A stretch of 64,000 nt of DNA from NCBI GenBank assembly GCA_947494325.1, contig CANLUS010000001.1, forward strand, positions 558,001 through 622,000. The letters are read 5' to 3'. Each line of letters starts with the position of its first letter. The first letter of the stretch is position 1. The notes beneath the pieces were generated by a model, which was given only the letters and a program-made list of their open reading frames with translations, was not told the origin of the DNA and did no database searches. The position numbers and the translations under genes were made by a program. Source of the stretch: an uncultured Flavobacteriaceae bacterium (GTDB taxonomy: Bacteria > Bacteroidota > Bacteroidia > Flavobacteriales > Flavobacteriaceae). Positions 8,607 to 46,011 of this stretch are shown here, piece by piece.

Positions 8607-8667
8607 CAATATACAACATTTGTTGAAAAAAATCGTCGATAACAATCGCTATCCAACCTATTTTTTT

Positions 8668-15379: not shown

Positions 15380-17410
15380 CTACCATTCTTCGATATACGC
15401 GCCATCTCTCACCGTATAATGAAATGCAATTCTTCTTTTCGAACATATTTGTTGCCAACGTGCAGCATAGCTTTTGTAATTGGAAGCATCTGCTATTATT
15501 ATCGATGGGCTCAGTTCCTCAATAAGGCGTTCTAAATTTATTTTTGGAGAATTAATAAGTAAGACTTTATCGACTTTGAATGAAAACGGTTTGTACACCG
15601 ATAAGCTGTCAACAACCAATATGTTTTTATCATTTATAGTATAAATTGATGAATAATGATCCGTTTCAGTGAGGTTATCAATAGCCCTTCCGGTAGTGTA
15701 ATCACTTATAATATTTGACGTTTGTATATCCGTTTTTTTTAAAACAGTTAAAGTGTTTCGCTCTTTGACTGCTATCAATGAGTTTTTACTTTTATTAAAA
15801 ATGATAAACTCATTTAGTGCTGCTGATTCGTACTTCTGAAATAGAAAAATCCCTTGTAAAAAAATCAGCGAAAGTAATGCAAATTTTAAACGGCCTAAGG
15901 TTTTCTTTTGTATCCACCTTACTGTAAGAATTAAGAATAAGTATGACCCCAATACCAAGAATATTGAAAAAGAAATTTCCTTAAAGAGAAAACTCTTTTG
16001 TCCAGCTATCCATGAAATTAAACTATTCATCGTGGATATTATTTCTTTAAAAAGGCTCAATAACAATATTGGCGTTAGCTGTATCCAACTTAAAAATATA
16101 ATAACAATTCCTAACCCTAAGACAAATCCCAATATCGGAACAATCGCGAGATTTGCAGCAAAAAATAATCCTGGAAACTGATGAAAATAATACAAACTCA
16201 ACGGCAGCACTCCAATCTGTGCAGCTAAGGAAACCGTAAATAATTGCCAAAAATAGTCTAAAAATTTCCATGTTGGGTTCCATATATTATAAATTATTGG
16301 TTGCAACCAAACAATGAAGAAAACGGCTAAATAACTGAGTTGAAACCCTACTTCGAACAAATAATAAGGATTAAATAATAGTAAAAAAAACATCGAGATT
16401 ATCAAGTTTTTATAAACGCTATTTTTTCTTCGAATCGCCAATCCAATACTTACTGCAGTGAACATGGTCACTGCTCTTATAACTGAAGCCGACATTCCAG
16501 CAATAAACGCGAACAACCAAAGTAATAGTACAACACAAATGAGCCGAATTATCTTTCCGTTTTTTAATCGCTTTAATGGTTTTAAAATAAAGTTCAACAA
16601 CAGCATAATGATTCCAACATGCAGTCCGGAAATGGCCAAAATATGAATTGCCCCTGCATTCGCATAACTTTGAAGTAGTTCATTTGATATCTGCTGACGT
16701 TGCCCCAATAATAAGGCATTTACAATGGCTAATTCATCTCCGATAAATCCATTTTTTATCAAGATTTCATTGGTTCTCTCTCTAAACTTATACGCCAACC
16801 CATTAAAAGTACTTTTTTGACCTTCAAGCTTTATAAATTCATCGTTAGCAATCGTAATCTGTTTATAGATATGTTGTCGCTTCAAATAGTTTTTATAATC
16901 GAATTGATATGGGTTTTTTGGTGGGTCTATATCTAAAAGATGGGTATAAACAACTATTTCATCATCTATAGAAATTTGTTTCTTGAGATGCTCCTTTTTT
17001 ATATTCAATAATACCAGCCCCTCACTTGGCTCACCATCTATTTTTAAAACTTTCGCTTCGTATTTATTGAAATAGGAATTTGGTTTTAATTGCGAGGTAA
17101 TTTTGGCAACAATCTGAAGGTTTTTTTTTGCAGATAAAAAGTTCATATAATGATCTGTTCTATTTAAATCATTATGAAAAGTAACAACAGCGATACCGAT
17201 GCAAATAAAGACGCAAAAGGTGGAGCAAGTATATAGAGAAATGAGGCTTAATCTATTTCTTATAAGTAAAAATATTAGCGTCAAAATCGCAAGAGAACTT
17301 ATTAATACAACGCAAACAGTCAAAAAAGAAATATTGACATAAAATCCAATAAGGATGCCTATGACAAGGCATAGTAATAGCTGAAGCGGTATATATTTTA
17401 GCAATTGCAT
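15380..17410 (-). CDS. comEC: ComEC/Rec2 competence channel
   Basis: A 676-residue inner-membrane protein of the ComEC/Rec2 family, which carries single-stranded DNA into the cytoplasm. Two or three N-terminal membrane segments precede a soluble OB-like DUF4131 domain (about 100-200). The ComEC core follows with many membrane helices and the hallmark HILAISGLHVGIIM near residue 250. The C-terminal soluble part is a short, degenerate MBL-like domain without the HxHxDH zinc motif. It is probably single in the genome. dprA and radA are also in this window, though not adjacent. No promoter was recognised. Confidence 0.93.
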   Translation of the reverse strand: MQLLKYIPLQLLLCLVIGILIGFYVNISFLTVCVVLISSLAILTLIFLLIRNRLSLISLYTCSTFCVFICIGIAVVTFHNDLNRTDHYMNFLSAKKNLQIVAKITSQLKPNSYFNKYEAKVLKIDGEPSEGLVLLNIKKEHLKKQISIDDEIVVYTHLLDIDPPKNPYQFDYKNYLKRQHIYKQITIANDEFIKLEGQKSTFNGLAYKFRERTNEILIKNGFIGDELAIVNALLLGQRQQISNELLQSYANAGAIHILAISGLHVGIIMLLLNFILKPLKRLKNGKIIRLICVVLLLWLFAFIAGMSASVIRAVTMFTAVSIGLAIRRKNSVYKNLIISMFFLLLFNPYYLFEVGFQLSYLAVFFIVWLQPIIYNIWNPTWKFLDYFWQLFTVSLAAQIGVLPLSLYYFHQFPGLFFAANLAIVPILGFVLGLGIVIIFLSWIQLTPILLLSLFKEIISTMNSLISWIAGQKSFLFKEISFSIFLVLGSYLFLILTVRWIQKKTLGRLKFALLSLIFLQGIFLFQKYESAALNEFIIFNKSKNSLIAVKERNTLTVLKKTDIQTSNIISDYTTGRAIDNLTETDHYSSIYTINDKNILVVDSLSVYKPFSFKVDKVLLINSPKINLERLIEELSPSIIIADASNYKSYAARWQQICSKRRIAFHYTVRDGAYIEEW

Positions 17411-31443: not shown

Positions 31444-33978
31444 ATGAAAAAAATTACTAATTTATTGATGGTTTTGATGTTCGCTATGACATCATCCATT
31501 TATGCACAAACCATTACTGGTACTGTAAATGCTGAAGACGGACCGCTTCCCGGAGCCAATGTTATTCAAAAAGGTACTACCAATGGTGTTACTACTGATT
31601 TTGACGGTAAGTTTTCGTTAAATGTTGCCGAAGGATCAGGTTCTGTTGTTGTTTCTTTTGTAGGTTATAAAAACACCGAGGTGAGCTATACTGTAGCTGC
31701 TGGTGAAACGAAAGATTTAGGTACTATCACATTAGTATCTGACAACACTTTAGACGAGATTGTTGTGACTGCAACTTCTTTTGCAATTGATCGACAAACT
31801 CCTGTTGCTGTTTCTACTATTAAGGCAGTAGAAATAGAAAACAAATTAGGATCTCAAGAATTTCCTGAAATTTTAAAATCAACGCCTGGTGTTTATGCCA
31901 CAAAAAATGGTGGTGGTTTCGGAGATGGTGATTTGAGTTTAAGAGGTTTTAACTCAGTAAACGTTGCTGTAATGATTAACGGTGTTCCCGTAAATGACAT
32001 GGAAAATGGTCGTGTTTTCTGGTCTAACTGGGCGGGTTTATCCGATGTTACTTCTGCAATGCAAGTACAGCGTGGTCTAGGAGCATCTAAAGTTGCTGTG
32101 CCTTCAATTGGTGGTACTGTTAATATTTTGACGAAGACTACTGATGCAAATAAGGGAGGAAGCATTTTCGTTTCAACTGGTAACGATAACTATCAAAAAT
32201 ATGGTATCACATTATCTACAGGAATGATGGATAATGGTTTTGCTGCGACTATTTCTGCTGCAAAAACAACAGGTGATGGTTATGTTGATGGAACAGAATT
32301 TAACGGTGCAAATTACTTCTTGAACATTTCAAAGCAATTAGGGGATAATCATAAAATATCATTGACAACGTTTGGTGCGCCACAACGACATGGTCAAAGA
32401 CAAGATAGAGTTTTAATTTCTGATATTAGAAATGCTGAGCAAGATGTGAAGTTCAACCCTAACTGGGGTTATAAAAATGGCCAAGTGGTTCATATAGAGG
32501 ATAACTTCTATCATAAATCTCAAACGTCATTAAATCACGATTGGACAATTTCTGACAATACATTTTTATCTACTGCACTTTATGCCTCTTGGGGTACTGG
32601 TGGTGGTGGTGGTACTGTCGGTTCAAACAGAGATTTATTTAAAGTAAGATTAGGTGGTGACGACCAACCAGTAGATTTAGATAATATTGTAAGAATTAAT
32701 AAAGCAAACGGTGCATTAGGTTCTGAAGCTGCGTTAAGAGCTTCTAGAAATGACCACAGCTGGTTTGGTTTATTATCTACGTTTAAGACGGAGATCAACG
32801 ATAATCTAGATTTTATCGGTGGTATTGATTTAAGAACATATACTGGTAAGCACTTTAGAGAAGTTACTGATTTATTAGGTGGAGAGTATTTGTTAGATAA
32901 TAACGACGTAAACAATCCAAATAATGCTGCACGTGTAGGTGATAAAATCGCTTACAACAATGATGGTGAAGTAGGTTGGCAAGGTCTATTTACTCAACTT
33001 GAGTATAACAATGACGTATTTGCAGGTTTTATTTCTCTTGCTGCATCTAATACTTCTTATAGAAGAATCGATTATTTTAACTATCTAGATAGTGATCCAT
33101 TACAAACTACAGATAGATTTAACTTTTTTGGTTATAGTGTAAAAGGTGGAGCAAACTATAATATCAATGAAACACAAAATGTATTTGTAAACATTGGTTA
33201 TTTTGAAAAAGCAGCCTTTTTCGACGCTGTATTCTTAAATTTCAACAATGAAACTATTAATGAGGATGCTGAAACTGAAAAAATATTTAGTGCTGAGATA
33301 GGTTACGGAATCAGATCTGAAAAATTTGCTGCAAATGTGAATTTATATAGAACTGAGTGGAACGATAGAACTTTCCCTAGATTTTTCCAAAACCCTGATG
33401 GTACCAATAGTGTTGCTAACATTACTGGTGTGAATGCATTACACCAAGGAGTTGAATTTGATTTCGAATATAGACCATCTACTCGTTTTAGATTAAATGG
33501 TATGTTATCTCTTGGAAACTGGGAGTGGGCAAATGATATTGAAAATGTTCAAATTTTTGATGAAGAGCAGAATTTAGTACAAACTGTAGATTTATTTATT
33601 GAAGGTTTAAAAGTAGGTAGACCTGCTCAAACAACTGCAGCCTTAGGATTCGATTGGGAACTATTTGAAAAAACTCACTTTACAGTTGATTACAACTATT
33701 TTGGTGATATCTATGCTGACTACGATCCAAATGATAGAGGAACTGCTGGTTTACCACAAGCTTGGAAACTACCAAATTACAGTACGTTTGATGCAAGTTT
33801 AAGATATGGTTTTAAAATCATGGACTTTGACGCTGTAGTAACAGGTCGATTAAATAATGTCTTCAATGTAGACTATATTCAAAGTGCCTTAGATGGTACC
33901 GGTTCAGTTGCCAGTACTGCTTTAGTATATTATGGTTTCGGAAGAACGTTTAACCTTAGTGCAAGAATTAAATTTTAA
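31444..33978 (+). CDS. TonB-dependent receptor with carboxypeptidase-like N-terminal domain
   Basis: An 844-residue outer-membrane importer. Signal peptide 1-21; residues 22-105 are a CarboxypepD_reg-like beta sandwich (ITGTVNAEDGPLPGANV). The plug runs from about 105 to 230 with ILKSTPGVYAT, SLRGFNSVNVAVMINGVPV and GGTVNILTK. The rest is a 22-strand barrel ending in a C-terminal Phe. Eleven bases later comes a lipoprotein that is not SusD, so this is not a standard glycan pair. An endonuclease lipoprotein follows next. I infer import of nucleic-acid fragments or another nutrient; substrate cannot be read from the barrel. Confidence 0.93.
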   Translation: MKKITNLLMVLMFAMTSSIYAQTITGTVNAEDGPLPGANVIQKGTTNGVTTDFDGKFSLNVAEGSGSVVVSFVGYKNTEVSYTVAAGETKDLGTITLVSDNTLDEIVVTATSFAIDRQTPVAVSTIKAVEIENKLGSQEFPEILKSTPGVYATKNGGGFGDGDLSLRGFNSVNVAVMINGVPVNDMENGRVFWSNWAGLSDVTSAMQVQRGLGASKVAVPSIGGTVNILTKTTDANKGGSIFVSTGNDNYQKYGITLSTGMMDNGFAATISAAKTTGDGYVDGTEFNGANYFLNISKQLGDNHKISLTTFGAPQRHGQRQDRVLISDIRNAEQDVKFNPNWGYKNGQVVHIEDNFYHKSQTSLNHDWTISDNTFLSTALYASWGTGGGGGTVGSNRDLFKVRLGGDDQPVDLDNIVRINKANGALGSEAALRASRNDHSWFGLLSTFKTEINDNLDFIGGIDLRTYTGKHFREVTDLLGGEYLLDNNDVNNPNNAARVGDKIAYNNDGEVGWQGLFTQLEYNNDVFAGFISLAASNTSYRRIDYFNYLDSDPLQTTDRFNFFGYSVKGGANYNINETQNVFVNIGYFEKAAFFDAVFLNFNNETINEDAETEKIFSAEIGYGIRSEKFAANVNLYRTEWNDRTFPRFFQNPDGTNSVANITGVNALHQGVEFDFEYRPSTRFRLNGMLSLGNWEWANDIENVQIFDEEQNLVQTVDLFIEGLKVGRPAQTTAALGFDWELFEKTHFTVDYNYFGDIYADYDPNDRGTAGLPQAWKLPNYSTFDASLRYGFKIMDFDAVVTGRLNNVFNVDYIQSALDGTGSVASTALVYYGFGRTFNLSARIKF

Positions 33979-33989
33979 GAAATAAGAAA

Positions 33990-35150
33990 ATGAAAAAAGT
34001 AATTTATTTATTATCGTTTGTAGCCGTTCTTTTTACGAGCTGTGACCCTCTTGATGATGTCTATGACGAATTAGACGCTCAAGGACCTGGAAACATTATT
34101 GTTGGTGAGGCAAAGTTTACTTTAACTGATGATGATTATGATGATTTAGGTTTAAATTTTGGTAATTTCGGATCGACAGATCAAGCTAAAAGCTTATTAC
34201 CAGCTTTCTTAGCAGATAAGTTCCCTGTTTGGGGAGAAGGTTCTTTAGCAGAAGTTACTTACGAATTATTTGCTCCATTACAAGAGCAAGATAGCATCGT
34301 GAGATATACAGTAACTACTGAAGATTATGATTCAAATCCTGAGACAGAAAGATTCAATAATTTTGATGATAATGATCAGATATTTGATTTCTTAAATGTT
34401 AGATACCCTACACCGGTTGACAATATGTTGGTTTCACTTACTTATGATTTCTTTAACGGAAGTGTAAATGAGTTTAACAATGGTTTCTTCTATACTGGTG
34501 GCGAGTGGATATTCGTTCCTGGCCTTACAGATGATGAATACACATTAGTTGGTGAGCGTTTTCCAAACTTCTCTTCTGAAGACGAAGCAGATGAAAAAAT
34601 GCCTCTTTTATTACTAGACAAGTTTAAGTTTGATTTTCCTGAAGCAGGTGATATTGAAGCTACGATGTATAAATTGTTCGTTACTGATGTTAGTGATTTA
34701 GACGGTGATGGTAGAACAGATGATAGAACTACCTATAGTTTTATTAAGTATTTCCAATATGATGGTGCTGCATGGTCAGCATATGATAATACGGTAAACG
34801 AAACATTACAATTTGGTAATGATGGTACTACTTGGGTTCCTGACAATACGATTACTTACACAATTGGAAGTGCTGATATCGCGATTATTGCTTCTGCATT
34901 AGAAGGAACATATCCTGATCCTGTTGCCAACGTTGTAAGATTTAATAGTTTTGACAGAAGAGCTAGTAGTGGTAATTACTGGAGTGACGACATGTTATTA
35001 GAAGCATTTAATGCTCTTTTAAACTCGGTAAACCCTAGTGCAGAAGAAGGTCAAAAATATGTACTAACTTTCGCAACCTTTACAGGAAGCGTTGTTGATG
35101 AAACTCAAAAAGTTATAAAATCTGGAGGTGTCTGGATTTATAACAACTAA
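33990..35150 (+). CDS. Repeat-containing surface lipoprotein, TonB receptor partner
   Basis: A 386-residue lipoprotein (lipobox LFTSC, Cys near 18) with a very acidic start (DPLDDVYDELD), consistent with export to the cell surface. I do not recognise a family. It has about four divergent repeats of 60-90 residues, each pairing a short DDxY-type start with an NFxSxDxA helix and a YPxP or DKFP turn; examples begin near residues 43, 105, 175 and 285. It is not SusD-like and has no TPR helices. It lies 11 bases after the TonB receptor and ends at a terminator, so the two form one operon and it may act as a substrate-binding lid. Confidence 0.85.
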   Translation: MKKVIYLLSFVAVLFTSCDPLDDVYDELDAQGPGNIIVGEAKFTLTDDDYDDLGLNFGNFGSTDQAKSLLPAFLADKFPVWGEGSLAEVTYELFAPLQEQDSIVRYTVTTEDYDSNPETERFNNFDDNDQIFDFLNVRYPTPVDNMLVSLTYDFFNGSVNEFNNGFFYTGGEWIFVPGLTDDEYTLVGERFPNFSSEDEADEKMPLLLLDKFKFDFPEAGDIEATMYKLFVTDVSDLDGDGRTDDRTTYSFIKYFQYDGAAWSAYDNTVNETLQFGNDGTTWVPDNTITYTIGSADIAIIASALEGTYPDPVANVVRFNSFDRRASSGNYWSDDMLLEAFNALLNSVNPSAEEGQKYVLTFATFTGSVVDETQKVIKSGGVWIYNN

Positions 35151-35173
35151 GTTTTACTTATCATATAGAATTA

Positions 35174-35207
35174 AAAACCTCTTGTCAAATTTGATAAGAG
35201 GTTTTTT
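35174..35207 (+). terminator. Intrinsic terminator of the first TonB receptor operon
   Basis: AAACCTCTT pairs with AAGAGGTTT, with inner TCAAA/TTTGA pairing, and is followed by six T. It separates the operon from the endonuclease gene. Confidence 0.8.
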
Positions 35208-35219
35208 AATTTAATTAGT

Positions 35220-35227
35220 TATTTTTG
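35220..35227 (+). promoter_or_regulatory. -7 element of the endonuclease I gene
   Basis: TATTTTTG, 28 bases before the ATG at 35256 and just after the preceding terminator. Confidence 0.45.
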
Positions 35228-35255
35228 TAGCTGTACATTCATTGAATCAAAATAC

Positions 35256-36605
35256 ATGAAAAAAGTTCTAAGTATATTCATTTGTAGCCTCCTTTTACTT
35301 ACGTGCAGTAAAGACAGTGGCGGAGGTATGGTAAAACCCCCAGAGGAAAACCTAAAACCTGTAGCGGTTGCTGATGCTGCTTCAACAACAGAAGATGAAG
35401 ATATTGACATTAATGTATTGTCAAACGATACTGTCATCACTGGTTCAAGAGTAGATTCATTTGATGCAAACGGAACTAATGGTGGTAGTATTATCGAAAA
35501 TAGAGATGGTACTTTTACCTATACGCCTTCAGATAACTTTGTAGGAACCGATACATTTACTTATACCTTATGTGATAATGACCCTACTCCAGATTGTTCT
35601 ACTGCAATGGTTACAGTTACCGTTATTGACGCTGGTTCTCCTACTGCTGCAGACGACCAAGTAAATACAGTTAAAAATACGATGATCATTATTAATGATT
35701 ATGCTCAAAATGATTCTACCGTTGATAGCGCAAGCATTAACGAAGTTGATTCGTCTAGTTCTACTGGTACTGCTACAATTAATTCTGATGGTACTATTTC
35801 TTATACTCCTCAAACTGATTTTGTAGGTGATGATACGTTTACCTATACAATTTGTGACGATGATACACCAGACCCTACTTGTGCAACAGCGACGATCACT
35901 GTTTCCGTTTTAGAGGCCACAGCATTCAATATTCCAGCCGATTTAAGTGCGTACTATGCTACTTTACCAATTACAACTGATAGTGACTTGAATTTTACCT
36001 TTGTTTCGAATCATACTTCCGATAAACACACTACCATTTTATCTTATGGCGAAAGGCACGGGTTTTTATATGACGCAGATGAAGACGCAACAAATACGCC
36101 GAATGTTGTTTTAATGTATAGTAGTGAGAGTCGCGATGAAAGAGAATATACTTCAGGTAACAACTCACATTCGCCGCAAACATTTAATACAGAACATGTG
36201 TATCCTCAATCTCGATTAGAGGCTGCTGATGCAGTTACTGATTTGCATCATCTAAGATCTTGTGATGCTGACGTTAATTCTAACAGAAGTAATTTTCCAT
36301 TTGTAGATGGGAGTGGTAACTTTGATTTAATTAATGGAAATACTTGGTATCCCGGAGATGAGTGGAAAGGTGATGTCGCCAGAATGATGATGTATTTAAA
36401 TGTAAGATACGGTGAGACTTTCGAAAAAGTTGGTACCCTAGAACTATTTTTACAATGGAATGCTGAAGATCCAGTTTCTAGTTTTGAATTACAGCGTAAC
36501 GCAGTTATTCAAGGAGCACAAGGGAATCGCAATCCTTTTATTGACAATCCATATTTAGCGACCCTCATTTGGGGTGGAACTCCTGCTGAAAATAGGTGGG
36601 AATAA
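35256..36605 (+). CDS. Lipid-anchored endonuclease I with two cadherin-like domains
   Basis: A 449-residue nuclease. The lipid Cys is C17 (LLLLTC), followed by a Gly-rich linker. Two Ig/cadherin-like repeats lie at about 36-122 and 127-217; both contain the GTxTYTP and FTYTxCDxD pattern. The C-terminal half from about 225 is an endonuclease I (NucM) domain with NTEHVYPQSR (E313, H314), DLHHLRSCDADVNSNR, and EWKGDVARMMMY. Such enzymes cut single- and double-stranded DNA and RNA outside the cytoplasm. The linker domains would hold the nuclease away from the membrane. It follows a TonB receptor operon and precedes a small membrane gene by 12 bases. Confidence 0.93.
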   Translation: MKKVLSIFICSLLLLTCSKDSGGGMVKPPEENLKPVAVADAASTTEDEDIDINVLSNDTVITGSRVDSFDANGTNGGSIIENRDGTFTYTPSDNFVGTDTFTYTLCDNDPTPDCSTAMVTVTVIDAGSPTAADDQVNTVKNTMIIINDYAQNDSTVDSASINEVDSSSSTGTATINSDGTISYTPQTDFVGDDTFTYTICDDDTPDPTCATATITVSVLEATAFNIPADLSAYYATLPITTDSDLNFTFVSNHTSDKHTTILSYGERHGFLYDADEDATNTPNVVLMYSSESRDEREYTSGNNSHSPQTFNTEHVYPQSRLEAADAVTDLHHLRSCDADVNSNRSNFPFVDGSGNFDLINGNTWYPGDEWKGDVARMMMYLNVRYGETFEKVGTLELFLQWNAEDPVSSFELQRNAVIQGAQGNRNPFIDNPYLATLIWGGTPAENRWE

Positions 36606-36617
36606 AATTTTACCATT

Positions 36618-37049
36618 ATGAAACAAATTCATTCTTATTGGGCGTATATCGCCGTATTGATTTTAATTGTTGCGTTTATAAATGCCGTAATGGGTATGGC
36701 AAAAAAAAGATCATTTACTGATAAAGATTTACGCATTTCTTTATTTACTTTAATTGTAATGCACATTCAATTACTAATTGGGTTAGGTTGGTACTTTATG
36801 AGCCCATGGTTTAAAGCCTTAAAAGACGTTGGCGTGAGTGCGGCAATGAAAGATGCACAATTAAGACTATTTTCTATTGAGCATCCAACCATGATGATTT
36901 TAGCGATTGTTTTTATTACCATTGGTTGGTCTAAACATAAAAAGAAAACAACCGATGAGAGTAAGTTTAAAACTATTATGATCTTTTATGGAATCGGTTT
37001 GTTCTTTGTACTTACAAGAATGCCATGGAAGCAATGGCTCAATTTGTAG
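36618..37049 (+). CDS. Four-helix membrane protein (often called cytochrome B-like)
   Basis: A 143-residue protein with four hydrophobic helices (about 7-27, 40-62, 88-107 and 118-134). Several His residues (H5, H49 and H90) sit at or near helix ends and could bind heme, which is why relatives in Flavobacteriaceae are often labelled cytochrome B. I see no other heme motif. It starts 12 bases after the endonuclease gene and probably shares its transcript, but a functional tie is unclear. Confidence 0.75.
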   Translation: MKQIHSYWAYIAVLILIVAFINAVMGMAKKRSFTDKDLRISLFTLIVMHIQLLIGLGWYFMSPWFKALKDVGVSAAMKDAQLRLFSIEHPTMMILAIVFITIGWSKHKKKTTDESKFKTIMIFYGIGLFFVLTRMPWKQWLNL

Positions 37050-37070
37050 AACTTTAATAGTTTCGAAGCA

Positions 37071-37853
37071 TCATTTTATATTTATGTGAAAAGAATCCAT
37101 ATCGTTCAAAAATTGTAGTTTCTCTCTTGTTTTTTCAAGATGCTTTGCACTAAGCGTTACAATTTCGGTCATTTCGGATGAAATCGGAATATTGGAAACT
37201 TTTTCTCCTAAGCTATTATAAGCAGCTGAATGCCCAATATATTCATGCTTATTAATATCGAACCCTACTCGATTCACACCTATACAATAGGTCATGTTTT
37301 CGATAGCCCGAGCTTTTAGTAAAGCGTCCCATGCTGCTATTCTAGGTTTTGGCCAATTGGCCACATACAATAAGAGATCATAATCATCGACATTTCTCGC
37401 CCATACCGGAAAACGTAAATCGTAACAAATTAAAGGGCAGATGTTCCATCCTTTGTAGTGTAAAATTAACTTTTCAGTTCCAGATGTATAAATTTTATGT
37501 TCTCCAGCCAAGGTAAAAGAGTGACGTTTATCATAGGTTTTTATTTCTCCTGAGGGATACACAAAAACTAATCGATTATAAAAATGCTCATTTTCTTTAA
37601 TAATTAAGCTCCCCGTAATTGCGCAATCCTTTTGATTTGCAAAGTTTTTCATCCATAAAATAGTTTCACCATCCATCGATTCGGCTACAGCATTCGGGTT
37701 CATAGTAAAACCTGTGCTAAACATTTCAGGTAAAATAATGAGATCAACTGATTCAAAAATTGCGTCAATTTTTTCAGAAAAATAAGCTCTGTTTTGCTTG
37801 GGATTTTCCCAGGCTAAATTTGCTTGAATTATGACTGTTTTTAAATCTTTCAT
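37071..37853 (-). CDS. Nitrilase-family amidohydrolase (omega-amidase-like)
   Basis: A 260-residue carbon-nitrogen hydrolase. The catalytic triad is visible: Glu in ILPEMFSTGF near 43, Lys in YDKRHSF near 105 and Cys in PLICYDLRFPVW near 139. The spacing and the MFSTGFTMNP motif match YafV/omega-amidase enzymes, which hydrolyse alpha-ketoglutaramate and similar amides. It is cytoplasmic. It lies 3 bases after the upstream EEP nuclease gene and is probably co-transcribed. Its link to the nuclease locus may be accidental. Confidence 0.92.
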   Translation of the reverse strand: MKDLKTVIIQANLAWENPKQNRAYFSEKIDAIFESVDLIILPEMFSTGFTMNPNAVAESMDGETILWMKNFANQKDCAITGSLIIKENEHFYNRLVFVYPSGEIKTYDKRHSFTLAGEHKIYTSGTEKLILHYKGWNICPLICYDLRFPVWARNVDDYDLLLYVANWPKPRIAAWDALLKARAIENMTYCIGVNRVGFDINKHEYIGHSAAYNSLGEKVSNIPISSEMTEIVTLSAKHLEKTREKLQFLNDMDSFHINIK

Positions 37854-37856
37854 GAT

Positions 37857-38903
37857 TTATTCTTTATCTTTTATGAGGTAAATATACACAGGAAAATGAT
37901 CACTATAGCCTCCCTGATAAGTATTATAATGATAACTTCTAAACGGATAGTTTTTAAAAGGTCCTTTCTCTGTAATCAAGTATTTTTTATTATAAATTCC
38001 AGCTTTATAAAAACGATATGAAGCATTCTCTTTCTCTAGCAAAGGTTGCGAAACTATAATTTGATCAAATAAAAATAACTGGTCTCTATAAACTAAGGTA
38101 TTCATTCCTCTTCGATGCATATTTGCCATTGGGTTATATAGGCCAACACTCTTTTTAACAGCCGCTTTTTTTTCCTTTGCATTGAGTGTTTTTTTAATAC
38201 TCGGACTGTCAGGGTCATCATTCAAATCTCCCATTGTAATTATTTTGGCCTGTTCATTTATTGTTTGTAAAGAGTCAATAATTTTATTGTTGAGATTGGC
38301 AGCCGCTATTCGAAATGGACGACTTTTTGCTTCTCCTCCGCTCCTCGATGGCCAATGGTTTACAATAATGTGAATTAAATCATCATCAAGTAACCCCGAA
38401 ACAACCAATTGATCTCTGGTGTAATCTCGCATCCCATTTTCTTTAAATAATAACAATTCATGTTTATTATAGTTCAAAGGTTTGAAATATTTTCTTCGAT
38501 ATAACAACGCCACATCAATGCCTCTTTCATCGGGAGAATCGAAATGAATAATGTCATACTGCATATCTTTAAGTTTATCAGAGGCCACCAAGTCTTTCAA
38601 TACTTTGTAATTCTCTACTTCACACACACCGATTATTGCAGGGCTAACCCCCGATTGTTCCATTCCAATCTCACTCAATACACGACTCAGTTTGTCAATC
38701 TTATCCCAATAAATCTTTGAGGTATATTTATCTTTTCCATCAGGAGTTCTGTCATCATCGAACTTTTTAGGATCATTAATCGTGTCAAATAAATTCTCAA
38801 CATTGTAAAATGCAATCGTTCGAATATCAAATTTGTCTCCTTGGCCATAAGAAAGACATATCGATAATAAGAATATGGTGGAAATCAACTTTTTAATAGG
38901 CAT
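37857..38903 (-). CDS. Secreted endonuclease/exonuclease/phosphatase family protein
   Basis: A 348-residue EEP-fold phosphodiesterase with a signal peptide (1-20, cut near SYGQ). The catalytic residues are present: Asn and Glu region FYNVENLFDT, Glu in GVCEVEN, His in VNHWPSR, Asp/Asn in GDLNDDPDSPS and the late SDHFPVY. The family includes DNases, RNases and phosphatases; a secreted nuclease is most likely here. It is divergent from the second TonB receptor, with about 150 bases between. A paralogue without a signal peptide is at 45046. The nitrilase gene follows after 3 bases. Confidence 0.92.
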   Translation of the reverse strand: MPIKKLISTIFLLSICLSYGQGDKFDIRTIAFYNVENLFDTINDPKKFDDDRTPDGKDKYTSKIYWDKIDKLSRVLSEIGMEQSGVSPAIIGVCEVENYKVLKDLVASDKLKDMQYDIIHFDSPDERGIDVALLYRRKYFKPLNYNKHELLLFKENGMRDYTRDQLVVSGLLDDDLIHIIVNHWPSRSGGEAKSRPFRIAAANLNNKIIDSLQTINEQAKIITMGDLNDDPDSPSIKKTLNAKEKKAAVKKSVGLYNPMANMHRRGMNTLVYRDQLFLFDQIIVSQPLLEKENASYRFYKAGIYNKKYLITEKGPFKNYPFRSYHYNTYQGGYSDHFPVYIYLIKDKE

Positions 38904-38923
38904 AGCTAGAAATAATAAGTAGT

Positions 38924-38931
38924 CAAAAGTA
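38924..38931 (-). promoter_or_regulatory. -7 element of the secreted EEP gene
   Basis: TACTTTTG on the minus strand, 20 bases before the ATG at 38903. CAA sites 10 and 15 bases further upstream are not well spaced as the upstream box. Confidence 0.5.
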
Positions 38932-39056
38932 ACAACAATTTCAACGCAAAAAATATTATTTTAAAAAATATAGCCTTTCTATCTTAGAAAATAAATACTG
39001 CTTTCATTTGGCAGCAAACGGCTCTTTTTTTGTAAAACTAATCTTGTCATTGATTT

Positions 39057-41786
39057 ATGAAAAAATGCGTTATACCGCTTGTGATCTCCTTTTTAATAAG
39101 TATGAATCTTAATGCACAACTTGTAAATAATGTAAAAGGCACTGTCTTGAGTTCAGAAACAAAATTACCCCTTTCAAATGTTGTAGTAGCCATTGATAAA
39201 ACAAGTATTTCGCATCGTACTGATAGAAATGGTAATTTCAATTTATCACATATCCCTAATGGTAACGTTGTGGTTAGAATTTCCTTTAAAGGATATGAGT
39301 CTCAATATTTTCCAATTATCTTAAAGCAAGGAACGATCATAGATTTAGGAACTATCTTTCTATCGAATTATCACATAGAACTTCAGGAAAACGAAGGTTC
39401 TATTACATTAACAGAAGACGATCTTAACAACGATAGAGGAGAATCTGAAAACACGACTGGTATTCTCCAAGCATCCAGAGATATCTTTCAAAATAAAGCA
39501 GCCTTTGACTGGGGACAAGCTTTTTTCAGAATTCGCGGTTATGGATCTGAAAACGCCGTTGTTCTACTTAATGGTATTTCAATGAATAAACTATTCAATG
39601 GTAGACCTGATTGGAATAATTGGGGAGGCCTCAACGATGCCACCCGCAATCAGCAATTAACACCAGGTTTGAGTACATCGACGCATAACTTTGGAGGAAT
39701 CTTAGGAAGCTCTAATATTTCAACAAGAGCTTCTAAATATCGATCAGGGCTAAGGGTTACTAGTTCTTATTCTAATCGCACTTATGCAGGTCGCGGTATG
39801 ATAACCTATAACTCAGGCATACAAAAAAACGGATTCGCCTATAGTCTTTCTAGCTCAAGGAGGTGGGGTAATCAAGGCTTTATTAATGGTACTGTGTATG
39901 ATGCTATCGGGTTTTTCGCAGCGGTCGAGTATCTTATTAATGAACATAACAGTTTAAATATTACCGCACTTTTCACCCCCAATAGAAGAGGGCAGGTAGC
40001 TGCAATTACATCACGTGTTTTTAATGAATTAGGCAGAAGGTACAATCCGTATTGGGGAATTCAAGATGGTACAATTAGAAATTCTAGAATTAGAAAGATA
40101 AAAGAACCCATTTTTCAATTAAATTATTTTCATGACAATGAAAATACAACCTTGTCAATTGGTGCGAGCTACCAAATAGGAAGTCAAAGTCGAAGTCGCT
40201 TGGATTATATAAATGCGCCCAATCCGAACCCGAATTACTGGCGATATCTTCCAACAATATCTGAAAAACCTCAGATCGATTGGCAGCGAATCTATGATGC
40301 AAATACCACAATCAGTAATATCAATAGCGCAGGGCAAGCTAGATACATACTTTACGAAGATCGAACCGAAGATAATGTGCTCTCTTTAAACATGACCTTA
40401 AATAAAAGACTCACACCATTTCTTACCATGGATATTGGTAGTACCTATAAAGATCTTTCCTCTAACAATTTTGGCAATCCAATCGACCTATTAGGAGCCG
40501 AGTATTATTCGGACTCAAATCAATTCTCACTAGTAAATGGTGAACCATCAAAGAACGATGTGCTAGGTGAATTAAACAAAGGGCTAGGAGAAAAGATTAA
40601 ATACCACTATAATCTTACCTCGAATGAATTAAACACTTTTACTCAACTACGTTTCAATTTTAAAAAGACCGATTTCTTTATTAGTGGATCATATATCAAT
40701 ACTTGGCATCAAAGAGATGGGTATTTCATGAATCAACTTTTTGAAGATACTTCGCTAGGTAAAAGCGATAAACTCACATTTACAGATTTAGGAATAAAAG
40801 GAGGGTTCACTTATAAAATAACAGGAAAGCATTTAGTAACCGTAAATGCAGGATATCTTTCTAAAGCGCCTGTAATTCGCAACTCTTTTGTCAACATAAG
40901 AGAAAATAATTTGCAAGTTCCTGATCTTTTAAGTGAAAAAATACTAAGCTCTGAGGCGACATATACGTTAAGATCTTCAAATCTAAAGGCAAAAGTCACG
41001 GGATATTTTACCGAGTTCAAAAATGGAACAGATATTAATTTCCTTTTTGCGCAAATCGGATCTGGATCAGATTTTTTTCAAGAAGTGGTTACCAACATTC
41101 ATAAAAGACATTTTGGAGGAGAACTTGGCGTTGAATATCAAGCGAATTCCTCCGTAAAAATTATTGCTGCCGCAGCTTTCGGTCAACATACCTATGCCAG
41201 TAATGCCAACGTCGCTATCAATTTCGACACTGCCGGGTTCAATGATGACCTTATTAATACCTCTGGGTTCAAAAATTTAGGCCAAACTTATATTAAAGAT
41301 CTCAAAATAGCGAATGGTCCTCAACAGGCATACTCCTTAGGAATTACTTATAGAGACTCTAAATCCTGGTGGATAGGAGCAACTATGAATTATCTTTCAA
41401 ATGCTTATGTAGATGTTTCCACGATTTCAAGAACAAATGATTTCTTTAATAATCCTAATGATCGATTCAATCATCCATTCGAAGATATTGACACCAATCT
41501 TGCTAAACAACTATTAAAACAAGAAGCATTTCAAGGGTTCTATTTATTAAACTTTACTGGAGGTAAATCTTGGCGTGTCAAAGGTAAATACATCAGTTTA
41601 TTCGTAAGTATTAATAATGCCTTTGATCAAATTTACAAGACCGGCGGTTATGAACAGTCTCGCACGGCCAATTACGCTAGTCTAATCGAAGATAGGTCAG
41701 AAGGTGATGATCGGCGGAATTTTGGAAATAAATACTGGTACGGACTTGGTAGGACTTATTTTTTGAATCTAGCAATTAATTTATAA
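39057..41786 (+). CDS. TonB-dependent receptor, second in the nuclease locus
   Basis: A 909-residue outer-membrane importer. Signal peptide 1-21; CarboxypepD_reg-like domain about 27-105 (VKGTVLSSETKLPLSNVVV); plug about 125-235 with FFRIRGYGSENAVVLLNGI and GGILGSSNIS; the remainder is a beta barrel ending in FLNLAINL. The plug is unlike a typical siderophore receptor. It is followed after 10 bases by the DUF5689/LTD protein and flanked by two EEP nuclease genes, one divergent upstream and one convergent further down. I infer that it imports products of nucleic-acid cleavage. Confidence 0.93.
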   Translation: MKKCVIPLVISFLISMNLNAQLVNNVKGTVLSSETKLPLSNVVVAIDKTSISHRTDRNGNFNLSHIPNGNVVVRISFKGYESQYFPIILKQGTIIDLGTIFLSNYHIELQENEGSITLTEDDLNNDRGESENTTGILQASRDIFQNKAAFDWGQAFFRIRGYGSENAVVLLNGISMNKLFNGRPDWNNWGGLNDATRNQQLTPGLSTSTHNFGGILGSSNISTRASKYRSGLRVTSSYSNRTYAGRGMITYNSGIQKNGFAYSLSSSRRWGNQGFINGTVYDAIGFFAAVEYLINEHNSLNITALFTPNRRGQVAAITSRVFNELGRRYNPYWGIQDGTIRNSRIRKIKEPIFQLNYFHDNENTTLSIGASYQIGSQSRSRLDYINAPNPNPNYWRYLPTISEKPQIDWQRIYDANTTISNINSAGQARYILYEDRTEDNVLSLNMTLNKRLTPFLTMDIGSTYKDLSSNNFGNPIDLLGAEYYSDSNQFSLVNGEPSKNDVLGELNKGLGEKIKYHYNLTSNELNTFTQLRFNFKKTDFFISGSYINTWHQRDGYFMNQLFEDTSLGKSDKLTFTDLGIKGGFTYKITGKHLVTVNAGYLSKAPVIRNSFVNIRENNLQVPDLLSEKILSSEATYTLRSSNLKAKVTGYFTEFKNGTDINFLFAQIGSGSDFFQEVVTNIHKRHFGGELGVEYQANSSVKIIAAAAFGQHTYASNANVAINFDTAGFNDDLINTSGFKNLGQTYIKDLKIANGPQQAYSLGITYRDSKSWWIGATMNYLSNAYVDVSTISRTNDFFNNPNDRFNHPFEDIDTNLAKQLLKQEAFQGFYLLNFTGGKSWRVKGKYISLFVSINNAFDQIYKTGGYEQSRTANYASLIEDRSEGDDRRNFGNKYWYGLGRTYFLNLAINL

Positions 41787-41796
41787 CAAGAAAGTC

Positions 41797-43809
41797 ATGA
41801 AATCAAACAAAAAATTTGAAATTCCATTTTTAGTTATTATATGTGCTTTACTTTGTCATAACTGCGTCAAAAGTGATGATTTCGATATACCTCAAACTGC
41901 TTGTTCAGATGCTATTGTTGCAACGAAAACAATAGATGCTATTTTCAATATTGCAACTACAGAAGTAAAAAAATATACGAGTGGTGATGTTATTGAAGGT
42001 TTCGTTATTTCTAGTGATCAAGAGGGCAATTTTTTTAAAAATATTTCTGTCCAAACCTTAGATGGAGCAATAGGTTTAACAGTTCCAATAGATCAAACAG
42101 ATTTATACACACTTTACAATCCTGGCAGAAAAGTATTGATTCAATTACAAGGTCAATATATTCAACTCGATGATAACATGTTGGAAATAGGAAGTTTATT
42201 TATAGATAATTTTCAAAATGAACAGGTAGGTAGAATCGCAAATCCGGCCTTCGAAAATATCGTGCTAAAATCATGTGAAACCGTTGACGAAGAACAGTTG
42301 ATAAACAATATCAATATTAACCAAATCAAAGATTCTCATTTACACACCCTAGTAGAACTAAGTGACGTGCAATTTGTTCAAGCGTCAATTGGCAAACGAT
42401 TTTACGAAAGTGATGACAATATTTCGAACGGTACAAATCATCTTATTCAAGATGCCAGCGGAGCTTCTCTTATTTTTAGAACAAGTGCTTTTGCGAACTT
42501 TGCGCAATTGAAAGTTCCAGAAGGCAATGGCACTATTCGAGGTGTTCTTACAAAATCTAAAGGTATGTATCAATTAATTCCGAGAACCACAGAAGATTTC
42601 AAATTAAGCAAAGAACGAATCCGTGTAGGTTTTGCCGATGTGATCACTGGTTCTCAAATAACAATTAACGATCTAAGAAAATTATATAATGGCACCAATA
42701 CTACTATTACTGAAGAAATTTTTATTGAAGGAATAGTTACCTTATCGGGGTTTGAAACCAACAATATTTCGAGTAAAAATGCTTTCATACAGGATGGTAC
42801 CGGAGCCATTTCTTTAAGTCTATTAGCCAACAATACATTAGAAGAAGGAATGCTGCTTAAAATAGGGGTACAGGGTTTATTACTAAGTAAATATAAAGGA
42901 TTACTCGAAGTTGAAGTCACCCAGAATCAAGATATCCAATTCATCAATGAAAACCAGATCCTTCCAGATCCTTTGTTGATCACTATTGAAGATTTATTAA
43001 GCGATGCGTTTCAATCACAATTGGTGAAAATTGATAGTGTTCAGTTCGAAAATGAGAATGGTACATACAGTGGATCTCAAATAATTACCGACTGCCTTAG
43101 TACAGCGAATCTAAGAACAAACAGCGAGGCCTCATTTTCTAACAATCCTTATCCATCAGGAAACGGAACAATTGTTGGTATTGCAACTCACGAAAATTCA
43201 GCACAACTATTACTAAGAGATGAAACTGATGTCATAGATTTAAATCAAGAGCGTTGTACAATAAGTACAGAACCAATCACCACCATTTTCTTTTCAGAAC
43301 TGGCAGATCCAAATAACAATTCAGCAGCCAGGTTCATTGAAATATACAATTCTGGAACTGAAAGTGTCAACTTACGTAATTGGCAAATAAAAAGGTTTAC
43401 CAATGCAAATACAACCTCTACAGTTTCCATCGATTTATCGGGCTCAATTATTAGTCCAAATCAAGCCTTTGTCATTGCTTCAAATGCCGTCGAATTTGAA
43501 AATATATATGGTTTTGCTCCTAACTTAGCAGCTGGTACTGGAAGTCCCGCAGATTCTAATGGAGATGACAATTTAGTCTTAATAGATCCTAATGGAGCCA
43601 TCATCGATATTTTTGGTGTCATAGGAGAAGATGGGTCTAATACCAATCATGAATTTGAAGATGGTAGAGCTTTAAGGAATAGCTCCATAAACCAAGGAAA
43701 TCCAATATATATCTTTTCTGAATGGCAACTATGGAATGATACGGGTGGTGCAGGTACCACTAATTTACCTCAAGATGCACCTGGAGTATTTACTCCGGGC
43801 GTAAGGTAA
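41797..43809 (+). CDS. DUF5689 and lamin-tail domain surface protein
   Basis: A 670-residue protein with a lipoprotein-like signal (Cys near 23, followed by VKSDDFD, resembling a surface-export signal). From about 30 to 255 it has a DUF5689-type region with OB-fold-like strands (GDVIEGFVISSDQEG). A second similar unit lies at about 285-400 (FIEGIVTLSGFETN). A lamin-tail domain starts near 490 with FFSELADPNNN and RFIEIYN and ends in a Gly/Pro-rich tail. Lamin-tail and OB-type units occur together in extracellular nucleases such as ExeM, but no nuclease motif is present here. It is probably the binding partner of the TonB receptor 10 bases upstream. Confidence 0.88.
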   Translation: MKSNKKFEIPFLVIICALLCHNCVKSDDFDIPQTACSDAIVATKTIDAIFNIATTEVKKYTSGDVIEGFVISSDQEGNFFKNISVQTLDGAIGLTVPIDQTDLYTLYNPGRKVLIQLQGQYIQLDDNMLEIGSLFIDNFQNEQVGRIANPAFENIVLKSCETVDEEQLINNININQIKDSHLHTLVELSDVQFVQASIGKRFYESDDNISNGTNHLIQDASGASLIFRTSAFANFAQLKVPEGNGTIRGVLTKSKGMYQLIPRTTEDFKLSKERIRVGFADVITGSQITINDLRKLYNGTNTTITEEIFIEGIVTLSGFETNNISSKNAFIQDGTGAISLSLLANNTLEEGMLLKIGVQGLLLSKYKGLLEVEVTQNQDIQFINENQILPDPLLITIEDLLSDAFQSQLVKIDSVQFENENGTYSGSQIITDCLSTANLRTNSEASFSNNPYPSGNGTIVGIATHENSAQLLLRDETDVIDLNQERCTISTEPITTIFFSELADPNNNSAARFIEIYNSGTESVNLRNWQIKRFTNANTTSTVSIDLSGSIISPNQAFVIASNAVEFENIYGFAPNLAAGTGSPADSNGDDNLVLIDPNGAIIDIFGVIGEDGSNTNHEFEDGRALRNSSINQGNPIYIFSEWQLWNDTGGAGTTNLPQDAPGVFTPGVR

Positions 43810-43820
43810 ACTTGGATATT

Positions 43821-44324
43821 TTAGAATTGTTTTGGTGGTTGCTTTTCAAAATCAGATTTATTGATAGCTTTCCCATTGATGGTTGCCGTATCCCAATCTT
43901 GGGTGATTTTCCATTGTCCATCAATCTTTTTTAAGACGATATGAAACTGTCCATAAATCGTATTTGTGCCTTCCGAACCTTTAAGCCGCATTCTATAGAA
44001 TCCTACTTCATATGAAGTCAATGCATTCGTTTTTCGACTATCAAACCAGAAGTCCAAATGAACGCTCGTTTTATTTTTCTTGTGAGTTTCAAACCGTTTT
44101 AAATTCGCTTTCTTGAAGTTGTTTTCGGTATCAATCCCACCTGGCGTTACCCTTAAAACCTCATCAGCATATAAGGAGTTTAGCGCGATTCCATCAATAC
44201 CTTCAAAGGCCTGCTGAAAAGGTTTCCAAAGCTCTTGATCGATTTCATTTTGAATACTTTTTTCATCTTGTACATAACTATTAATCATTGAAAACAACAG
44301 CATCAGAAAGCATAAATTTTGCAT
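43821..44324 (-). CDS. Secreted NTF2/DUF4440-like protein
   Basis: A 167-residue protein with a short signal peptide (about 1-17) and one NTF2-like alpha-beta domain. The first helix holds WKPFQQAFEGIDGIALNSLYADEV, then VTPGGI, and a late strand contains WKITQDWDTATING, typical of DUF4440/SnoaL-like proteins. Members bind small hydrophobic ligands or act as simple enzymes; nothing here points to one function. It converges on the DUF5689/LTD gene with 11 bases between stops. Its link to the nuclease locus is uncertain. Confidence 0.82.
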   Translation of the reverse strand: MQNLCFLMLLFSMINSYVQDEKSIQNEIDQELWKPFQQAFEGIDGIALNSLYADEVLRVTPGGIDTENNFKKANLKRFETHKKNKTSVHLDFWFDSRKTNALTSYEVGFYRMRLKGSEGTNTIYGQFHIVLKKIDGQWKITQDWDTATINGKAINKSDFEKQPPKQF

Positions 44325-44678
44325 ATTTTAAAATTTAATGAGATAACAAGTTTACATAAAAAAACAAAATATGAACACAAGCTATCTTTACTTTTTTTGA
44401 TCAATTAACCTTTGCCTAACACTTAAAAAACAGATGTCATATAAAATATTAATACATTTTAACACGCTTTCTACAAATAATGAATCGTTTCCTTATTAAT
44501 CATAACTAAACGTAGACTATTTTCTAAATTAACTATTAAAAGAGCAATATAAACCCAATGTAAACAATTATTTTATTCTATTTATTATAACGCTAAAACA
44601 ACGTTTTCATAATCCAAAAATCTCAAAATTGCTCGATCGACGATCTACCTTTGAAGTATTCATTAAAAAACTTGAATT
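44325..44678. other. Intergenic region between divergent genes (354 bases)
   Basis: Very AT-rich. It contains the -7 element TACCTTTG at 44646-44653 for the next gene and an 8-base palindrome TCGATCGA near 44633. I see no RNA gene, repeat array or convincing reading frame. Confidence 0.45.
44646..44653 (+). promoter_or_regulatory. -7 element of the gene at 44679
   Basis: TACCTTTG, a perfect TAnnTTTG match 25 bases before the ATG. Confidence 0.5.
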
Positions 44679-45011
44679 ATGAAAAAAATTAGTGCGCTTA
44701 TCATCATGTTTGCTTTAGGAACTGTGCTTTCTTTTGCTCACAACGTAAATTCTGAACCATCATCTCAACTTTCACTAGAGATCGAAAAAATGTTAGCAAA
44801 GCCTTCTTTTACTTTTTCGAAAAAAGAGATAAAAGCAACTGTTCTTTTAACATTGAATAACGATTCTGAAATCGTCATTATCGAAGTAAAAACCGATAAT
44901 AGGTTAGTAAAGTCTTTTGTAAAAAGTAGGTTGAACTACAAAAAGATTAAAAACAACACAATTGAAAAAGGTAAAATCTATAAAATGCCTTTAACTATTT
45001 TAGAAAGCTAA
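44679..45011 (+). CDS. Small secreted protein of unknown function
   Basis: A 110-residue exported protein. A signal peptide covers about residues 1-20 (ALGTVLSFA). The mature part has a beta-strand pattern, KATVLLTLNNDSEIVIIEV, and ends with LNYKKIK...YKMPLTIL. I recall comparable short proteins in Flavobacteriaceae that look like a reduced TonB C-terminal domain, but no functional name is justified. It has its own promoter and terminator, so it is a single-gene unit, between the nuclease locus genes. Confidence 0.78.
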   Translation: MKKISALIIMFALGTVLSFAHNVNSEPSSQLSLEIEKMLAKPSFTFSKKEIKATVLLTLNNDSEIVIIEVKTDNRLVKSFVKSRLNYKKIKNNTIEKGKIYKMPLTILES

Positions 45012-45040
45012 TGAGAAGCTTATTATTTGAATTAAGTGTG

Positions 45041-45066
45041 CCCTTTCAATTTTGGAAGGGTTTTTT
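45041..45066 (+). terminator. Intrinsic terminator of the gene at 44679
   Basis: CCCTTTC pairs with GGAAGGG (one T-G pair), a 6-base loop and six T. The stem overlaps the stop and last codons of the convergent EEP gene. Confidence 0.65.
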
Positions 45067-46011
45067 GTTTTCTAACTTAACAAACACAGGAAAATGATCA
45101 CTAAAACCTCCCTGATGCCATTTGCCAATATAGGTTCTAAAAGGATCTCCTTTGCGTTTGCCTTTCCAAGATTTTAAAAAATGTTCTTCAAAAATTTCTG
45201 CCTGACGAAAAACGAGTCCGTTATTTTCATTAAACAATTTTTTACTAAAAATTATTTGATCGAATAAATACCAATTATCATCATGTGTTGCAGTACCCTT
45301 TCCTTTGTCATAGATTGATTCAAAAGGATTGTAAAAATCTTCTGATACTAAATGTTGTTTGATACTTGGACTATTTGGATTGTCATTAAAATCACCCATA
45401 ATTATAATATTGGGATTTTCTGTTTCAGTTTTTATTTGATCAATAACTTGATGTACTAAATTCGCCGCTTTAATCCTTTTTGGTTGCGTTTCTAAGGTAC
45501 CTTTTCTTCTCGAAGGCCAGTGATTTACTATGAAATAGGTAAGTACTCCATGCAGCTTTCCTTTTACTAATAAGACATCTCGAGAGTAATCGGGTTCACC
45601 ATCTTCGTCCATAAATATAAGAGGAAATGCCTCCGAATCTAACAACTCAAAATGCTCCTTCTGGTATAAAAGAGCAACATCTATCCCTCGCTCATCTTGC
45701 GAATCGTAATGCACAATTCCATAATGATGTTCTTCTAAGTCTTTCGCCTCTACCAAATCGGTCACAACTTTTAAGTTTTCAATTTCCGCAACACCAACTA
45801 TTACCGGTGGGTTTCCCGTTTCCTCCACTCCTATTTGTGAAATTACAGAACTCAACTTATTAATTTTTCTGTGATATCGTTTATTGTTCCAACGTTTTCG
45901 CCCTTCAGGTGTAAAATCGTCATCATGCGTCTTCGGATCGTCAACTGTATCAAACAAGTTTTCCAAATTATAAAATGCAAGTGTAAAGGTCGAATTAGAG
46001 TCGTTTTTCAA
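45046..46011 (-). CDS. Endonuclease/exonuclease/phosphatase family protein, no signal peptide
   Basis: A 321-residue EEP-fold protein, paralogous to the one at 37857. Active-site parts are FYNLENLFDT, GVAEIEN, VNHWPSR, GDFNDNPNSPS and the late SDHFPVF, all intact. Unlike the paralogue it begins directly with the catalytic domain and has no signal peptide, so it is predicted to be cytoplasmic, perhaps finishing breakdown of imported oligonucleotides. The start is TTG at 46011, inside a TACTTTG stretch; no upstream ATG would add a leader before the preceding gene region. It converges on the small secreted gene. Confidence 0.88.
   Translation of the reverse strand: MKNDSNSTFTLAFYNLENLFDTVDDPKTHDDDFTPEGRKRWNNKRYHRKINKLSSVISQIGVEETGNPPVIVGVAEIENLKVVTDLVEAKDLEEHHYGIVHYDSQDERGIDVALLYQKEHFELLDSEAFPLIFMDEDGEPDYSRDVLLVKGKLHGVLTYFIVNHWPSRRKGTLETQPKRIKAANLVHQVIDQIKTETENPNIIIMGDFNDNPNSPSIKQHLVSEDFYNPFESIYDKGKGTATHDDNWYLFDQIIFSKKLFNENNGLVFRQAEIFEEHFLKSWKGKRKGDPFRTYIGKWHQGGFSDHFPVFVKLENKKPFQN

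Follow-up and report, generated by a model that had tools for sequence, protein, structure and literature searches.

Two genes are essential for natural transformation in Riemerella anatipestifer. Clean deletion of RA0C_RS04915, which encodes an outer-membrane protein with a carboxypeptidase-regulatory domain, abolished transformation, as did clean deletion of RA0C_RS04920, which encodes a DUF5689 protein (PMC8459023). The loss was total in both mutants, the same as in comEC and dprA mutants, and Huang et al. (2021) put forward a speculative receptor model for this one species (PMC8459023). The papers cited here are represented by excerpts of their text, and what we say of them is limited to those excerpts. 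We found that a similar pair of genes is present in a 64,000-nucleotide stretch of DNA (the window) from an uncultured Flavobacteriaceae bacterium (contig CANLUS010000001.1, positions 558,001 to 622,000 of the forward strand). About 15 kb of the window (31444-46011) contains two neighboring TonB-linked nucleic-acid modules. Module A is an EEP nuclease gene that is divergent from the gene for a TonB-dependent-receptor-like protein (receptor 2), which in turn is followed by the gene for a DUF5689 lipoprotein. Module B comprises a second TonB-dependent receptor (receptor 1), an acidic partner lipoprotein, and Endonuclease I (EndA). Based on homology and gene order in common with the essential R. 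anatipestifer genes, on the conservation of the receptor 2-DUF5689 pair and its EEP, and on gene fusions and gene runs with nucleases, module A is best read as a DNA-import gate, not as a food system alone.

The locus also resembles other known systems in part. Like SusC/SusD systems, it has a TonB receptor followed by a surface lipoprotein, and receptor 1 has a match to SusC that is below the cut-off (93.6 of 368 bits). It differs in that nucleases replace glycosidases and that no SusD family was among the matches of either receptor partner (Pfam and further family scans), as the original prediction for this DNA had said. We therefore rejected identity with SusCD. Extracellular nucleases of the ExeM/NucH type combine lamin-tail, OB, and EEP domains in one protein. 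The lamin-tail part of the DUF5689 protein and a second, cytoplasmic-type EEP in the interval weakly match the corresponding models (NF033680 and NF033681), but far below the model cut-offs, and in the window these domains are on separate genes that are joined to a TonB receptor.

Module A and its counterpart in R. anatipestifer

Module A consists of the following genes:

37857..38903, minus strand: EEP nuclease (Exo_endo_phos_3, Pfam E 3.5e-114) with a signal peptide (by eye)
39057..41786, plus strand: receptor 2, TonB-dependent-receptor-like protein with a CarbopepD_reg_2 domain, the counterpart of RA0C_RS04915
41797..43809, plus strand: lipoprotein with two DUF5689 stretches and a lamin-tail (LTD) domain (Pfam; lipobox by eye), the counterpart of RA0C_RS04920

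We compared these genes to the genome of R. anatipestifer strain CCUG25054 (PMC8459023 used another strain). Receptor 2 had one strong match, with 34% identity over residues 37-907 of 909 (E 3.6e-134); the second-best match (E 7e-42) was a relative of receptor 1. The only gene found in a search of that genome for DUF5689 directly follows the receptor-2 counterpart, and its product is 29% identical to the DUF5689 protein of the window. An EEP gene is divergent and 5' of the receptor-2 counterpart, and its product is 39% identical to EEP 37857-38903. That is, the order in R. anatipestifer is recA ... comEC ... EEP <> receptor 2 > DUF5689; recA is separated from comEC by four genes, and comEC from receptor 2 by three. 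This spacing fits RS numbers that rise in steps of five, so the EEP there would be RS04910, which appears in the excerpts of PMC8459023 as an expression control only; the EEP partner is not discussed in them.

The window thus has both marks of an R. anatipestifer-type receptor pair: homology over the full length of the receptor and a DUF5689 lipoprotein directly 3' of it. The two loci are also alike in the divergent EEP and in having ComEC near. They differ in that the proteins are only 29-39% identical, that the window's DUF5689 protein has two DUF5689 stretches plus a lamin-tail domain, and that receptor 1 and EndA are beside module A in the window, whereas R. anatipestifer has no EndA unit beside its receptor 1. 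A few kb past the transformation cluster of R. anatipestifer there are Cas9-like and Cas1-like open reading frames (ORFs; by eye, L106:85-3825).

Receptor 2 is a candidate TonB-dependent receptor with a divergent Plug. In Pfam its CarbopepD_reg_2 domain is clear, its Plug domain scored 20.3 bits (below the cut-off of 23.9), and there was no barrel match. It matches receptor 1, which has both Plug and barrel, across the full-length range with 28% identity. Receptor 2 and the EEP with the signal peptide are basic (isoelectric points (pI) of 9.1 and 8.8, respectively). This EEP is probably periplasmic, and both its location and its role are predicted. It retains the motifs E-[VI]-E-N, NHWPS, GD-x-ND, and SDHFP, as does the second EEP, and EndA retains EHVYPQS and NSNRSNF. 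We take these to be the catalytic motifs. The strict form of the EEP motif pattern was found in 29 of 54 cases and a relaxed form in 48 of 54.

Conservation, range, and nuclease associations of module A

Receptor 2 is widespread in the order Flavobacteriales. Among 146 genomes of the order, 55 had a strong match (at least 425 bits; the next match of another kind scored 162 bits) and 119 had any match. The strong matches were in 27 of 28 genomes of one family (f1, which we take to be Flavobacteriaceae), in 26 of 26, among the matches listed, of another (f4, presumably the family of R. anatipestifer), and in one genome each of f3 and f9.

We then analyzed 56 receptor-2 loci (the window, 54 other neighborhoods from the order, and R. 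anatipestifer), each read to about 8-10 kb on each side. A DUF5689 gene adjoins receptor 2 in 54 of them. These are 51 loci identified by script and three that were read directly (L048 and L052, with an overlap past the script limit, and L095, with a split receptor). The misses were L087, where a 613-amino-acid lipoprotein with weak OB matches follows instead, and L092. The receptor-2 gene of L095 (genome G127) is broken across two frames, and the DUF5689 gene that follows is present. A divergent EEP gene is beside receptor 2 in 42 of the 56 loci; the 14 loci without one are 12 from a single genus (g2), one from a genome of the window's own genus (G067), and one at a contig edge (G036). Chance adjacency is ruled out for module A by these frequencies.

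The association extends beyond the order. DUF5689 matches were found in 92 of 198 genomes of the phylum. At the strong DUF5689 places outside the order, receptor 2 was adjacent in seven of eight, and six of those seven had a divergent EEP; none of 12 weaker places that were also read had receptor 2. Three of eight matching plasmid records (from Aureibacter, Flammeovirga, and Bacteroides) contain a receptor-2 relative together with DUF5689 and EEP and/or Endonuclease I; in the other five there was a lamin-tail match only, or the receptor was not looked for. Scans of viral contigs for DUF5689 and receptor 2 found no relatives. In a quick tree of the receptors, the receptor-2 rows formed a single clade (n = 19, support 99). 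The excerpts of PMC8459023 report homologues of RS04915 only in Flavobacteriaceae. We found receptor 2 outside that family, so its range is wider than published there.

DUF5689 is also joined to nucleases directly. In Flammeovirga it forms a fusion with Endonuclease I, and the window's genome encodes, outside the window, a large protein that combines several of the domains discussed here:

L105:3000-8963: 1987-amino-acid secreted protein with Endonuclease I, fn3, lamin-tail, DUF5689, EEP, a SprB repeat, and a type IX secretion system (T9SS) tail

The DUF5689 domain of this protein scored 26.5 bits in one search and 28.8 in another (cut-off 28.6), and its EEP domain scored 27.5 bits (cut-off 24.5). 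On the Aureibacter plasmid, one strand carries a receptor-2 relative, two DUF5689 genes, Endonuclease I, and two EEP genes. The original prediction had taken nuclease, partner, and receptor to be a coherent set. The 1987-amino-acid fusion and the Aureibacter run bear this out as a functional association, but the set is not one fixed system.

These findings bear on whether receptor 2 could act in transformation only indirectly, by importing a small ligand or shaping the envelope while DNA crosses the outer membrane elsewhere. Other envelope genes also lowered transformation in the same screen (PMC8459023), effects of TonB are partly explained by iron (PMC8383284), and the DUF5689 lipoprotein is acidic, all of which would fit such a role. 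It fits poorly with the total loss of transformation for both genes, as with comEC and dprA (PMC8459023), with the fusion of DUF5689 to nucleases, and with the coupling of EEP to receptor 2 in 42 of the 56 loci. We regard an indirect role as quite improbable.

Module B and the rest of the interval

The other genes of the interval include:

31444..33978, plus strand: receptor 1, TonB-dependent receptor (Pfam CarbopepD_reg_2, Plug, and barrel)
33990..35150, plus strand: acidic lipoprotein partner with internal repeats (pI 4.05; no Pfam or NCBIfam match)
35256..36605, plus strand: EndA lipoprotein with two Ig-like domains and an Endonuclease_1 domain (E 2.5e-35; lipobox by eye)
36618-37049, plus strand: 143-amino-acid membrane protein without a convincing family
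37071-37853, minus strand: nitrilase/amidohydrolase (NCBIfam NF007757, above the cut-off)
45046..46011, minus strand: second EEP (Exo_endo_phos_3, Pfam E 2.1e-106), no signal peptide by eye, adjoining hflX

The Endonuclease_1 domain of EndA scored 122.8 bits (Pfam cut-off 25). All of the genes named in the original prediction were recovered in place (ORF list and Pfam scan), including two TonB-dependent receptors, a lipid-anchored Endonuclease I, and a secreted and a cytoplasmic EEP (lipobox and signal peptides by eye). The interval also contains genes that the prediction had left unnamed, namely those for the 143-amino-acid protein, the nitrilase, a DUF4440 protein, and a 110-amino-acid ORF. 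The 143-amino-acid protein is 3' of receptor 1, or of its EndA, in many Flavobacteriaceae. The nitrilase gene is on the same strand as EEP 37857-38903 and three bases downstream of it, and the two are probably co-transcribed.

Module B is mostly separate from module A. The complete gene set was present in one stretch at only two of the 56 receptor-2 loci (the window and L079). EndA was within the stretch read at the same two loci, a count that would miss an EndA gene farther away, and a second EEP was within the stretch read at four (the window, L064, L079, and L093). On these counts, we rejected the idea that the 15 kb as a whole form a single conserved operon. The original prediction of one system with two receptors, their partners, and three nucleases was not supported in that form; the comparison of gene order that it called for found rare co-occurrence for the full set and not for module A. 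An order running PGI-receptor 1-143-aa protein-EEP<>receptor 2-DUF5689-EEP-hflX is common to the window, L064, and L079, and L064 keeps the order of the window but lacks EndA and the partner. In G067, receptor 1 is far from receptor 2.

Receptor 1 has a context of its own. It is usually found in the order M23-PGI-receptor 1-143-aa protein, without EndA or the partner. Among 12 receptor-1 loci in Flavobacteriales (the window, L012, L061, L064, L079, L092, and L096-L101, the last six hand-picked from distant places), three had EndA beside receptor 1 (the window, L079, and L097) and four had the acidic partner (the same three and L096). Receptor 1 is 39% identical to an R. anatipestifer receptor. 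In the quick tree it belongs to a second clade (20 rows, support 100), and the partner-bearing receptors group as a clade. The gene at L097:11648, labeled TBDR1 and among the 13 TBDR1 profile rows, falls among the background rows of the tree.

It is very improbable that unrelated receptors and nucleases simply gathered over these 15 kb by chance. Such a gathering would fit the separate conserved context of receptor 1, its distance from receptor 2 in G067, and the distribution of Endonuclease I, which is found in 119 of 197 genomes of the class in many settings. It does not fit the adjacencies of module A, for which chance is already refuted, or the PGI-to-hflX order that is common to L064 and L079.

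Receptor 1 is likewise linked to nucleases, but the link is looser within Flavobacteriales. We examined a sample of 40 EndA loci (among the matches listed, 34 were every third row of the weaker part and six were from the stronger part). A receptor-1 relative was at most 500 bases upstream of EndA on the same strand in seven of the 40, and receptor 2 in none; four of these loci had less than 1 kb upstream (L220, L226, L227, and L232), and L227 has only a fragment of the receptor. Receptor-1 relatives from distant families precede proteins with T9SS tails that have OB and Endonuclease I or OB and PLD domains (L169 and L170). In L170 (6222-11321), a receptor-1 relative is followed by a protein with DUF5689, PLDc, and T9SS parts, that is, with a different nuclease-type fold. 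These runs also have a lamin-tail protein ahead of receptor 1, identified by Pfam match in L169, L215, and L228, below the cut-off in L219, and by eye in L170, L222, L224, and L235. Module B is probably an accessory unit of surface nuclease and receptor that supplies fragments as nutrient; the substrate of each of its parts is predicted.

Competence genes and a proposed route for DNA

The window also encodes proteins that act on DNA in transformation, and the same genome has a pilus-like operon elsewhere:

3184-4539, minus strand: RadA-like ATPase (Pfam domains)
7482..8645, minus strand: DprA, which binds incoming single-stranded DNA (Pfam DNA_processg_A)
15380..17410, minus strand: ComEC, the inner-membrane DNA channel of transformation (Pfam Competence, E 2.3e-59)
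L121:4001-8454, outside the window: operon like those of type II secretion systems and type IV pili, with a prepilin-like ORF, a GspE/PilB-like ATPase (by eye), and a secretin

The first three genes are all within 40 kb of receptor 2; the name RadA-like is one we presume from the Pfam domains. In addition to ComEC and DprA, the window's genome carries a helix-hairpin-helix protein and a gene of the DUF1343 family (the RS09020 family).

DNA uptake by a type IV pilus and secretin has the same presumed outcome as the route proposed here, with DNA in the periplasm and then passed to ComEC. The difference is in the secretin. There was no secretin match in 47 of the 56 receptor-2 genomes, including R. 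anatipestifer and all 26 genomes of f4; the other nine, among them the window's genome, have one. Thus, the receptor 2-DUF5689 pair cannot generally be an accessory of a pilus.

We think it reasonably likely that module A is the outer-membrane DNA-import gate used by Flavobacteriales in natural transformation, with module B as an accessory nuclease and receptor unit. The DUF5689 lipoprotein would capture extracellular DNA at the surface and pass it to receptor 2. Energy from TonB would open the plug of receptor 2, and DNA would reach the periplasm, where the ComEA-like helix-hairpin-helix protein may hold it. The EEP nuclease may trim incoming DNA or salvage DNA that goes no further. ComEC and DprA would take one strand into the cell. 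The contribution of module B would be a nuclease at the surface and a receptor to go with it, probably serving nutrition.

Several observations weigh against this reading. The requirement of the pair for transformation is shown in R. anatipestifer alone (PMC8459023), the excerpts of that paper contain no experiment showing DNA passing through the receptor, and it is possible that transformation is blocked at a step later than receptor passage. Reduced transformation of tonBA and tonBB mutants favors the gate, but the tonBB effect was attributed to iron in the same study (PMC8383284). Flavobacterium johnsoniae was not transformable under the conditions tested (PMC7965970), and its genus carries the pair (PMC8459023, Table 4). 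F. columnare and Galbibacter are named as exceptions to the adjacency (PMC8459023). Within the window's genome, the helix-hairpin-helix match is weak (22%, E 5e-8), and the secretin is present in the pilus-like operon. A control search with DUF5689 also found matches in Bacillus subtilis, so DUF5689 is not confined to module A. Matches to OB folds were weak and below the cut-off in two DUF5689 relatives (L087 and L154), with none in the window protein.

The DUF5689 lipoprotein of the window has an acidic pI of 4.4, which a plain DNA binder would not be expected to have. The proteins of module B (receptor 1, its partner, and EndA) are likewise acidic, and these charges argue against DNA binding by the lipoproteins through simple electrostatic attraction. 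An AlphaFold model of one DUF5689 stretch (two window rows) had a mean pLDDT of 32 and was not used, and sequence searches of the PDB gave no useful relative of the locus proteins searched, including the DUF5689 protein. We infer that DUF5689 binds DNA and that receptor 2 itself passes it.

Alternatively, the locus could be one nutrient-scavenging system in which EndA cuts DNA or RNA, the partners bind the fragments, both receptors import them, and the EEPs finish degradation, with transformation a side use or absent. We consider this unlikely. In its favor, nucleases are present in the neighborhood and in the fusions, F. johnsoniae was not transformable, transformation of R. columbina rises when peptone or phosphate is removed (PMC7965970), and a surface nuclease would be expected to oppose transformation with long DNA. 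However, transformation of R. anatipestifer falls without phosphate (PMC8383284). Moreover, EndA and the second EEP are at few receptor-2 loci, and the pair is essential in R. anatipestifer, so the DNA must stay long enough for recombination (PMC8459023). Since the pair is essential there, the imported DNA need not be food only. Nutrition stays possible for the proposed gate, as use for food and use in transformation need not be mutually exclusive.

A broader reading, which we hold only tentatively and put somewhat below an even chance, is that receptor 2 is a TonB-driven, pilus-free DNA channel across Bacteroidota (in Flavobacteriales, other families of the class, Cytophagales, and plasmids of Bacteroides) that works with a DUF5689/lamin-tail capture lipoprotein and an EEP. 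The receptor-1 clade would also be coupled to nucleases, and TonB receptors for nucleic acids would then form an entire group.

The essential role of the core pair in one species, with a speculative receptor model, was known already (PMC8459023). In the open-licence PMC literature (titles, abstracts, and term counts; bioRxiv not included), only that paper, as excerpted, proposes DNA import by such a receptor, and it alone contains the word DUF5689. Within this scope, the match of the locus to RS04915/RS04920, the conserved EEP, the range across the phylum, the nuclease fusions, the frequent lack of a secretin, and the link of receptor 1 to nucleases are new.

Our results address how DNA crosses the outer membrane in Bacteroidota without a pilus secretin. 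The locus and its relatives make the receptor model of PMC8459023 general and testable. DNA uptake across the outer membrane of these bacteria may proceed through a nutrient-type receptor and not a pilus. TonB receptors are established importers of small ligands, glycans, and some proteins. If the proposed role of module A is true, they would import DNA too.

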